Assembly (NCBI RefSeq): GCF_000948285.1
Contig: NZ_JYBP01000003.1
Location: forward strand, 1,116,001 to 1,180,000
Origin: Geobacillus kaustophilus
GTDB taxonomy: Bacteria > Bacillota > Bacilli > Bacillales > Anoxybacillaceae
DNA length: 64,000 nt
Direction of reading: 5' to 3'
Below, in pieces: positions 15,885 to 58,273 of the stretch (position 1 is the first letter of the stretch; every line of letters starts with the position of its first letter). The notes under the pieces are model-generated. The model ran no database searches and was not told the origin of the DNA. It was given only the letters and a program-made list of their open reading frames with translations. The position numbers and the translations under genes are program-made.

Positions 15885-17438
15885 ATGAACGAAACGGCGA
15901 AAGAGCGCACAACGCTGACAGCGGAGCTTGAAAAGCGGGCTGCTGACATCAAAAAAGGCGGGGCGCCAAAATATCATGAAAAAAACGCCGCCCAAGGGAA
16001 ATTGTTTGTTCGCGAGCGGCTGAACTTACTGCTTGATAACGGCTTGGAAGTGGAAGACGGATTGTTTGCCAACTGTTTGGCGGGCGATTTGCCGGCTGAC
16101 GGGGTGGTGACCGGCATCGGCAAAATCAATGGCCGCACCGTCTGCGTGATGGCGAACGATTCGACAGTAAAGGCCGGCTCGTGGGGAGCGCGCACCGTCG
16201 AAAAAATCATCCGCATTCAAGAGACGGCGGAAAAACTGCGCTGCCCGATCATTTATTTGGTGGACTCGGCCGGCGCCCGCATTACGGACCAAATCGAAAT
16301 GTTTCCCGGCCGGCGCGGGGCGGGGCGCATTTTTTACAATGAGGTGAAGCTGTCCGGCAAAGTGCCGCAAGTGTGCTTGTTGTTCGGTCCATCAGCGGCC
16401 GGCGGCGCCTATATTCCGGCGTTTTGCGACATTGTCATCATGGTCGAAGGCAATGCCTCGATGTACTTAGGCTCGCCGCGCATGGCGGAAATGGTGATTG
16501 GGGAAAAAGTGACGCTCGAAGAGATGGGCGGCGCCCGCATGCATTGCACCGTCTCCGGCTGCGGCGACGTGCTCGTGAAAACCGAAGAAGAAGCGATTGC
16601 CTATGCACGCCGTTATTTGTCGTATTTTCCGTCCAATTACAGCGAAAAGCCGCCGGTGGTCGAGGCGAAGCCGCCGAAATCGTTTGACAAAACGATCGAG
16701 GACATTTTGCCAGAAAACCAAAATGCGCCGTTCAACATGTATGATTTGATTGAGCGGATCATTGACGAAGGATCGTTTTGTGAAATCAAAAAACTGTTTG
16801 CGCCAGAAATCATTACGGGACTGGCGCGCCTTGCCGGCCAGCCGATCGGCATCATCGCCAACCAGCCGCGCGTCAAAGGCGGCGTATTGTTCCACGATTC
16901 GGCTGATAAAGCGGCGAAATTCATCACGCTTTGCGACGCGTTCCATATCCCGCTTCTGTTTTTGGCCGACGTCCCTGGCTTTATGATCGGCACGAAAGTC
17001 GAGCGGGTCGGCATCATCCGCCATGGGGCGAAAATGATCGCGGCCATGTCGGAAGCCACCGTACCGAAGATCTCGGTCATCGTTCGCAAAGCGTACGGCG
17101 CCGGATTGTACGCGATGGCCGGGCCGGCGTTTGAACCAGATTGCTGCCTGGCGCTTCCGAACGCGCAAATCGCCGTCATGGGGCCGGAAGCGGCCGTCAA
17201 CGCCGTCTACGCCAACAAAATTGCCGAGCTGCCGCCAGAAGAGCGTGCGGCATTTGTCGAACAAAAACGCGAGGAATACCGGCGCGACATCGACATTTAC
17301 CGTCTCGCCTCCGAGCTTGTCGTCGACGGAATCGTCGCGCCGAACGATTTGCGCAACGAGCTCATCCGCCGATTTGACGCGTATATGTCCAAGTATATGG
17401 TCTTTTCTGAGCGGAAGCATGGGGTGTATCCAGTTTGA
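15885..17438 (+). CDS. yngE: acyl-CoA carboxylase carboxyltransferase subunit (methylcrotonyl/propionyl type)
   Basis: This 517-residue protein has the two crotonase-like halves of biotin-dependent carboxyltransferases. The N-half acyl-CoA site shows GPSAAGGAYIPAFCD and the C-half shows FLADVPGFMIGTKVE and YGAGLYAMAGPAF. It transfers carboxyl from carboxybiotin to the acyl-CoA, most likely 3-methylcrotonyl-CoA given its neighbours; propionyl-CoA is the main alternative. The start was set at MNETAKER because GAGGAGGG lies before it, although a GTG 30 bases upstream is in frame. A 160-base non-coding gap separates it from the hydratase gene, yet no terminator is seen there. Confidence 0.9.
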   Translation: MNETAKERTTLTAELEKRAADIKKGGAPKYHEKNAAQGKLFVRERLNLLLDNGLEVEDGLFANCLAGDLPADGVVTGIGKINGRTVCVMANDSTVKAGSWGARTVEKIIRIQETAEKLRCPIIYLVDSAGARITDQIEMFPGRRGAGRIFYNEVKLSGKVPQVCLLFGPSAAGGAYIPAFCDIVIMVEGNASMYLGSPRMAEMVIGEKVTLEEMGGARMHCTVSGCGDVLVKTEEEAIAYARRYLSYFPSNYSEKPPVVEAKPPKSFDKTIEDILPENQNAPFNMYDLIERIIDEGSFCEIKKLFAPEIITGLARLAGQPIGIIANQPRVKGGVLFHDSADKAAKFITLCDAFHIPLLFLADVPGFMIGTKVERVGIIRHGAKMIAAMSEATVPKISVIVRKAYGAGLYAMAGPAFEPDCCLALPNAQIAVMGPEAAVNAVYANKIAELPPEERAAFVEQKREEYRRDIDIYRLASELVVDGIVAPNDLRNELIRRFDAYMSKYMVFSERKHGVYPV

Positions 17439-17459: not shown

Positions 17460-17488
17460 TTGCCAAGGGACGGCAGATCATGTATCAT
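17460..17488 (+). promoter_or_regulatory. putative promoter of a structured RNA unit
   Basis: TTGCCA (17460-17465), a 17-bp spacer and TATCAT (17483-17488) lie just ahead of the folded region at 17521 and would start transcription near 17495. Confidence 0.4.
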
Positions 17489-17520
17489 AATAATCACCAA
17501 TCCGTTGCTGCGTTGTGCGT

Positions 17521-17753
17521 TGTAGAATGAAGTTTCAACCGATGGCAATCAAAAGGGAGTTCTACATTGAAGCGGGAATGTCATGCCTCAATATTCGTGA
17601 TGGAGGACGGCAGGAACGCTTCTGCGAACACCCACCTGGTGGAGCGTGGTTGAGAAACTGCATTCAGCCAACGGCAACAGCGGCGCGGATTCACGAATGA
17701 GGAGTTGGCAAAAGAGTCCAACTGGATGCAAAACATCCGGTTGGACTCTTTTT
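17521..17753 (+). ncRNA. possible structured non-coding RNA
   Basis: No convincing gene is present here, but three long-range helices abut each other: TGTAGAA 17521-17527 with TTCTACA 17560-17566; TTGAAGC 17567-17573 with GCCTCAA 17585-17591 (one mismatch); ATTCGTGA 17593-17600 with TCACGAAT 17691-17698. Smaller hairpins lie inside the third helix (CCAC/GTGG and GGTTGA/TCAGCC). A strong terminator follows at 17711. A promoter-like sequence precedes it. I do not recognise it as 6S, SRP, tmRNA, RNase P or a known riboswitch. An insertion-element end or 3' untranslated region of the preceding operon are alternatives. Confidence 0.4.
17711..17753 (+). terminator. strong rho-independent terminator
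   Basis: AAGAGTCCAAC (17712-17722) pairs with GTTGGACTCTT, enclosing a smaller GGATG/CATCC hairpin, and ends in five T. Confidence 0.85.
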
Positions 17754-17891
17754 CGTTGCGTATGTTTTCTCAAAAAGACATGAAACAATATAGTTGATTT
17801 TCCCTGTTTTCATGTTATAATCATATTTCGTGCAGGGATAATTCGTATTGAAACTATTCCAACAAGAAAGATGAGGCAAGGAGGGGGATGA

Positions 17892-18332
17892 ATGGAAGGG
17901 ATCAGCCGGGACATCATGTACGCTGTCTTCCGGACGCAAAAGGCGCTTTATCGCCTCATCCGCGAGGACGCCGCCCGCGTCGGGGTGACAGAGGTGCAGC
18001 TGATCGTCTTATATACGCTGCTGAAAAAAGAGCATATTCGCCTGAATGACTTGGCGGAAAAATTAAACTTAAGCAACAGCAATGTCAGCGGCACGGTTGA
18101 CCGGCTCGTCGGCGCCGGCCTTGTTGTCCGAGAGCCGTCGAAGCAAGATCGGCGCGCGGTCATTTTGAGTTTGACGGAAAAAGGAAAAGAGACGGTGTCG
18201 GAAGCGTTTGGCGAGCAGTCGGTGCTGCGCCGGCGGCTTGGCCGCATTCAAGAACTCGTCTCTCCAGAGGAGATTGAACAGTTTTTGCATCTTCATGAAA
18301 AAATTAAAGCGATTTTACTCGGGGAGGAATAG
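17892..18332 (+). CDS. yhbI: MarR family regulator of the adjacent efflux operon
   Basis: This 146-residue winged-helix protein shows the MarR core LNDLAEKLNLSNSNVSGTVDRLVGAG followed by the wing REPSKQDRRAVILSL. MarR proteins dimerise and release DNA on binding small aromatic ligands. It is the first gene of an operon with a membrane-fusion protein (3 bases downstream) and an EmrB-type pump, the same order as B. subtilis yhbI-yhbJ-yhcA, so autoregulation and control of the pump are likely but inferred. AAGGAGGGGG lies before the start. Confidence 0.85.
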   Translation: MEGISRDIMYAVFRTQKALYRLIREDAARVGVTEVQLIVLYTLLKKEHIRLNDLAEKLNLSNSNVSGTVDRLVGAGLVVREPSKQDRRAVILSLTEKGKETVSEAFGEQSVLRRRLGRIQELVSPEEIEQFLHLHEKIKAILLGEE

Positions 18333-18335
18333 ACG

Positions 18336-18974
18336 GTGAACGTGAAACGATTGGTTGCGCTGAACATCATTGTGCTCATTTTGCTTGTCGGTGGAGGCTT
18401 TGCCGCCTACTACTATGTGAATGAAGCAACGAACTACATTAAAACGGACAACGCCCGCATCGACGGCCAGGTCATCTCCGTCGCTGCGCCGCTGTCCGGG
18501 AAGCTGACATCCTGGCGGGGCGACACGGGAAAAACCTTCTCAGCTGGGGAAGAAATCGGCGAGGTGTTTGACGGCAAAACAACGATTCCGGTGACAGTGC
18601 CGCATCGGATGACGATCGTGCAGCAAAACGCAGTCAAGGACTCGTTTGTCGCCGCGGGGATGCCGCTGGCCCGCGGGTTTGATTTGAACGATTTGTGGGT
18701 GACGGCGAATATTGAAGAGACGGATATTGAAGACGTGAAAATCGGGCAAGACGTCGATATTTATGTCGATGCGTATCCGGATCGCAAATTCAGCGGCAAA
18801 GTCGAAAAAATCGGCAACGCGACAGCGAATACGTTCAGTCTGCTGCCAAGTTCCAATGCGACCGGCAACTACACGAAAGTGACCCAAGTCATCCCGGTGA
18901 CGATTTCCATTGACAACTACAGCGGAGCCGGACTTGTGCCGGGCATGAACGTCACCGTCCGCATCCATAAGTAG
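18336..18974 (+). CDS. yhbJ: HlyD/EmrA-type membrane fusion protein
   Basis: This 212-residue protein has one N-terminal membrane helix (IVLILLVGGGFAAYYYV) followed by biotinyl-lipoyl-like and beta-barrel segments (DNARIDGQVISVAAPLSGKL; NDLWVTANIEETDI), the core of periplasmic-adaptor type proteins. It is shorter than Gram-negative EmrA (about 390) because it lacks the long coiled-coil hairpin, as expected without an outer membrane. The GTG start follows GGGGAGGAAT. It works with the MFS pump encoded next. Confidence 0.85.
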   Translation: MNVKRLVALNIIVLILLVGGGFAAYYYVNEATNYIKTDNARIDGQVISVAAPLSGKLTSWRGDTGKTFSAGEEIGEVFDGKTTIPVTVPHRMTIVQQNAVKDSFVAAGMPLARGFDLNDLWVTANIEETDIEDVKIGQDVDIYVDAYPDRKFSGKVEKIGNATANTFSLLPSSNATGNYTKVTQVIPVTISIDNYSGAGLVPGMNVTVRIHK

Positions 18975-48788: not shown

Positions 48789-48931
48789 CGTTGCCCGCTG
48801 TCCGCTTGACAAATTCACACTGGCGCCGCCGCGGAGCGGCAAGGATGGATGAGAGGCAGGGCTTCCATTGTTTTTGTGTTTTCTTCGAGTTTTCATAATA
48901 AATGTTATGTAAACAAAAGGAGAAAAGCGAG

Positions 48932-58014: not shown

Positions 58015-58091
58015 CGGGAAGTAGCTCAGCTTGGTAGAGCACACGGTTCGGGTCCGTGAGGTCGCAGGTTCAAATCCTGTCTTCCCGACCA
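58015..58091 (+). tRNA. tRNA-Pro (anticodon CGG)
   Basis: A full cloverleaf of 77 bases: acceptor CGGGAAG/CTTCCCG, anticodon stem CACGG/CCGTG with loop TTCGGGT, T-arm GCAGG-TTCAAAT-CCTGT and an encoded ACCA end. It reads CCG codons. First of three tRNAs in a row. Confidence 0.95.
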
Positions 58092-58101
58092 TTATAGACA
58101 T

Positions 58102-58174
58102 GGGGCCTTAGCTCAGCTGGGAGAGCGCCTGCCCCGCACGCAGGAGGTCATCGGTTCGAATCCGATAGGCTCCA
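58102..58174 (+). tRNA. tRNA-Ala (anticodon CGC) with C33
   Basis: Cloverleaf of 73 bases: acceptor GGGGCCT/AGGCTCC with A73, anticodon stem CCTGC/GCAGG, loop CCCGCAC, T-arm ATCGG-TTCGAAT-CCGAT. The sequence matches a usual tRNA-Ala body, but base 33 is C rather than the near-universal U. CCA is not encoded. It would read GCG codons if functional. Confidence 0.88.
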
Positions 58175-58183
58175 TTTTCATAC

Positions 58184-58273
58184 GGAGGAATACCCAAGTC
58201 TGGCTGAAGGGGGCGGTTTCGAAAACCGCTAGGGGTGTCACAGCCCGCGGGGGTTCGAATCCCTCTTCCTCCA
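58184..58273 (+). tRNA. tRNA-Ser (anticodon CGA)
   Basis: Class II tRNA of 90 bases with a long variable arm: acceptor GGAGGAA/TTCCTCC, anticodon stem GCGGT/ACCGC with loop TTCGAAA, T-arm GGGGG-TTCGAAT-CCCTC. CCA is not encoded. It reads TCG codons. Its 3' end is duplicated at 59353-59371. Confidence 0.95.
58251..58269 (+). repeat. att-like direct repeat, left copy (tRNA-Ser 3' end)
   Basis: Nineteen bases of the tRNA-Ser T-arm and acceptor match 59353-59371 with two mismatches; the last 13 (GAATCCCTCTTCC) are identical. Confidence 0.5.

Follow-up and report, generated by a model that had tools for sequence, protein, structure and literature searches.

6S RNA acts as an open-promoter mimic: it occupies the active site of the housekeeping holoenzyme until a pRNA is copied from it, which frees the RNA (PMC8876501). 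Bacillus subtilis has two such RNAs, 6S-1 (bsrA) and 6S-2 (bsrB), both of which associate with sigma-A RNA polymerase (PMC11077062) and are templates for pRNA (PMC7430163). The bsrA gene is flanked by aspS and yrvM (PMC11077062), and the published 6S-1 pRNA of B. subtilis is the 14-mer 5'-GUUCGGUCAAAACU. The physiological role of 6S-2 is still described as unclear, B. subtilis included (PMC7430163, PMC7726162), and no paper naming Geobacillus, 6S RNA and 6S-2 together was found in our literature search.

A 6S RNA gene between a carboxyltransferase and a MarR gene

The window, that is, the whole stretch of 64,000 nucleotides of Geobacillus kaustophilus DNA that was analysed, holds a gap between a carboxyltransferase gene, which ends at 17438, and a MarR gene, which starts at 17892, with no recognised protein gene between them. 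A preliminary description had placed in this gap a structured RNA gene flanked by a promoter and a terminator of its own, and in this it was right: the promoter pair TTGCCA-17-TATCAT is present at 17460-17488, a promoter is conserved at the same position in relatives (consensus TTGcca/TTGcaa and TATgAT/TATcAT), and a strong terminator hairpin stands at 17707-17754 (-30.7 kcal/mol, z -8). The description had also called the RNA new and unlike any known class, and here it was mistaken, since the covariance search against Rfam that it proposed as a check, run over the whole window, gave a match to RF00013 (6S/SsrS) at 17502-17690 on the plus strand, scoring 77.3 bits where the gathering score is 46.4, and the match is full-length, covering model positions 1-187 of 187. 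The RNA of the gap is a genuine structured RNA gene, functional-looking and of a class already known. We put the probability that it is the 6S-2 RNA (bsrB type, RF00013) of a Geobacillus-group bacterium at about 0.97, and no evidence contradicting this identity was found. The match is to a curated family and the paralogue type is known from Bacillus; as the second of two 6S copies, both common in this group of bacteria, the gene is an ordinary one. Its parts are the following.

17460-17465, plus strand: -35 element TTGCCA, its position conserved upstream of orthologues
17483-17488, plus strand: -10 element TATCAT, at a conserved position in orthologues; the putative transcription start lies at about 17495
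17502-17690, plus strand: 6S-2 RNA core, the extent of the RF00013 match
17506-17536, plus strand: 5' strand of the closing stem (helices 1-3, paired with 17654-17685), with conserved pairing and two-sided changes; window coordinates of the closing stem were read off manually from row 1 of the alignment
17529-17543, plus strand: predicted pRNA template, with the product 5'-AUCGGUUGAAACUUC, from alignment with 6S-1
17537-17554, plus strand: 5' side of the central bubble, presumably the counterpart of that in other 6S RNAs; the bubble may contain a weak helix (17540-17544/17645-17649)
17555-17633, plus strand: apical arm, helices 5-8, and terminal loop, with covariation
17555-17562/17626-17633 and 17569-17574/17617-17622, plus strand: helices 5 and 6 of the apical arm
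17579-17582/17609-17612 and 17586-17589/17603-17606, plus strand: helices 7 and 8 of the apical arm
17634-17653, plus strand: 3' side of the central bubble, from the clade alignment fold
17654-17685, plus strand: 3' strand of the closing stem, from the clade alignment fold
17707-17754, plus strand: intrinsic terminator hairpin with T-run

Two other RNA loci lie in the window. The Rfam scan matched the BsrC small RNA family (RF01410) at 48795-48881 on the minus strand, with 77.7 bits against a gathering score of 38, and a cluster of three tRNA genes, Pro(CGG), Ala(CGC) and Ser(CGA), is located at 58015-58273 on the plus strand.

Secondary structure and covariation

Energy minimisation already folds the window sequence into one long rod, and the region folds more stably than its shuffles (z -2.85). 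When 36 sequences of the 6S-2 clade are aligned, the fold is a rod made of a closing stem, a central bubble and an apical arm, and the independently built Rfam model agrees with it. Two-sided changes that keep the pair occur at 19 of the 49 pairs; in the apical arm they affect 11 of 21 pairs, including all six of helix 6. The two-sided cells amount to 126 against a shuffle mean of 43.8, with none of 500 shuffles as high, although related sequences can exceed shuffles without any structure. Moreover, 97.3% of cells are paired compared with 41-55% when the partner is slid, a control that is biased in favour of the rod, since this alignment also yielded the rod itself. So many pairs with two-sided changes are nevertheless hard to explain except by structure, and the rod fold of the 6S RNA family is thus recovered here together with covariation. 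In addition, the sequence of the bubble is almost invariant within the host family, 30 other genomes of which share the promoter, core and terminator; in most orthologues the downstream terminator-like hairpin has a different sequence.

Assignment to the second paralogue

The source genome has two RF00013 matches. The higher-scoring copy (L064, 3001-3187) is located between aspS, encoding aspartyl-tRNA synthetase, and a ThiF-family (yrvM-like) gene, which is the position of bsrA; this makes the copy in the window 6S-2, the second of the two paralogues. A tree of 75 6S sequences places it inside a group of 23 host-family 6S-2 rows, which joins 13 order-level copies of other families with support 100/99 and is separate from all 6S-1 rows. 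It is thus both distinct from the 6S-1 of the aspS-yrvM position and grouped with other second copies. A sister copy, L117, has a DksA/TraR zinc-finger gene before it and a RecQ gene after it. In B. subtilis, recQ/yocI adjoins bsrB, and the surroundings of L117 resemble the yocI-bsrB-yocJ-yocK neighbourhood of that species; this recQ-adjacent copy was used as a stand-in for B. subtilis bsrB.

Some genomes carry further copies. At the order level, genome G058 has two 6S-2-type copies (L095 and L102) and a third 6S match. A third 6S RNA, of the 6S-1 type and distant from the host family's own, was also seen at L038 (G012:C322), which is probably a foreign contig, the draft genome having a contamination of 5%.

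Distribution, gene order and loss

Like many of its relatives in the Bacillales, Geobacillus has two 6S copies. All 41 host-family genomes contain 6S RNA, and 31 of them have at least two matches. The order carboxyltransferase, 6S-2, MarR, EmrA-like and MFS is kept in most host-family genomes with a second copy, while the neighbours of 6S-2 vary between families. The EmrA-like adaptor gene (18336-18974, plus strand), which adjoins the MarR regulator and a DHA2-type MFS exporter, encodes only 212 amino acids, which align chiefly with the C-terminal part of the EmrA profile.

The ten single-match genomes come from two genera, namely G001-G009 from genus g2 and G040 from genus g9. A more sensitive search of these ten again gave one match only, the 6S-1 gene being retained, and a DNA search with the window 6S-2 locus found nothing in them. 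The gene upstream of 6S-2 has a full-length orthologue in eight of the ten and a fragment in one (G004, where the remnant is interrupted by a stop). Considering the single match, the empty DNA search and the upstream gene that is mostly kept, these two genera appear to lack 6S-2 by gene loss.

Loss with the upstream gene retained could be read as a sign that the window copy is itself a degenerate, non-functional 6S paralogue, and so could its RF00013 score, which is below that of 6S-1 in the same genome (77 against 107 bits); a score lower than that of 6S-1 is common to every 6S-2 copy in the host family across the 41 genomes. We consider this reading very improbable, because the compensatory changes in the stems, the near-invariant bubble and the promoter and terminator conserved in the 30 other genomes indicate that 6S-2 is under selection.

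The perfect arms and the remaining readings

The preliminary description had based its new class on three long-range helices touching end to end from 17521 to 17698, and had held their perfect 7- and 8-bp arms to be unlikely by chance. Promoter and terminator are real, as shown above, and two perfect arms of at least 7 bp do exist in 17521-17698, one of 7 bp (17521-17527/17560-17566) and one of 8 bp (17593-17600/17691-17698); our assessment covers these two, the third helix having no certain counterpart. However, such lengths are unremarkable, since 14% of dinucleotide shuffles of 17521-17698 contain two or more arms of 7 bp or longer, and 18% contain one or more 8-bp arms. Neither did the alignment check for compensating changes, also proposed there, bear the helices out: across 27 orthologues the two arms do not covary, the 7-bp arm being paired in 81.0% of cells against a shuffled-column mean of 81.0%, and the 8-bp arm in only 46%. 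The shuffles and the pair counts in orthologues rule the arms out as RNA structure; they are incidental, and the supported fold is a different one, the nested rod. With the arms neither covarying nor persisting in orthologues, a curated family model passed over the whole length and the 6S fold supported by covariation, a new RNA class is refuted and its remaining probability is smaller still than that of a degenerate copy.

The least probable reading, of almost negligible weight, is an insertion-element end or a short protein gene: a 61-codon frame (17515-17700) is open across the region, but its 61-aa product has no Pfam or NCBIfam match, the loop indels in orthologues are not all multiples of three, the stem changes preserve pairs and no conserved reading frame was seen in an informal look at the orthologues, while against an insertion element there is one copy at a conserved position, with the gene order kept across the host family.

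Proposed mode of action

For the 6S-2 RNA of the window, the most likely mechanism, by analogy, is open-promoter mimicry of sigma-A RNA polymerase with release by pRNA synthesis. The sigma-A-type promoter at 17460-17488 would transcribe an RNA of about 200-250 nt, which would fold into the rod with its closing stem, central bubble and apical arm. As described for 6S RNA of B. subtilis and E. coli, 6S-2 would mimic a melted promoter and sit in the active site of sigma-A RNA polymerase, and this occupancy would dampen transcription from housekeeping promoters. The polymerase would copy a short pRNA, predicted by alignment as 5'-AUCGGUUGAAACUUC, from the 5' side of the bubble, starting opposite U17543 with a product that begins AUCGGUUGAAAC, and pRNA synthesis would refold 6S-2 and free the polymerase. 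We infer the transcription, the polymerase binding, the pRNA start and the physiological role of 6S-2 in this way. For the 6S-1 copy of the source genome, the predicted pRNA GUUCGGUCAAAAC equals the first 13 bases of the B. subtilis 6S-1 pRNA.

The predicted 6S-2 pRNA template reads CCGAU in the host family against CCUUU in the order-level copies. Taking this change of the template start together with the gene loss in two genera, 6S-2 of thermophilic Bacillales could conceivably differ from B. subtilis 6S-2 in release behaviour or role, although we regard this as rather unlikely.

Comparison with known 6S RNAs

The window 6S-2 adds a routine case to a well-studied family, and its value is modest: a thermophile 6S-2 orthologue, accompanied by related genomes that divide cleanly into those with and those without the gene. 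It resembles B. subtilis 6S-2 (bsrB) in being a second 6S paralogue beside a 6S-1 of the aspS-yrvM position, in its rod-shaped fold, and in having a sister clade that holds the recQ-adjacent copy; it differs from bsrB, as represented by the stand-in, in being flanked by the carboxyltransferase and the MarR/EmrA/MFS genes. With the 6S-1 (bsrA type) of its own genome it shares the Rfam family and the size, whereas 6S-1 has a diverged sequence, belongs to a separate clade and is located after aspS. The 6S RNA of E. coli (ssrS) is distant in sequence and is likened here by family and description, as a member of the same Rfam family with the same model of action (PMC8876501).
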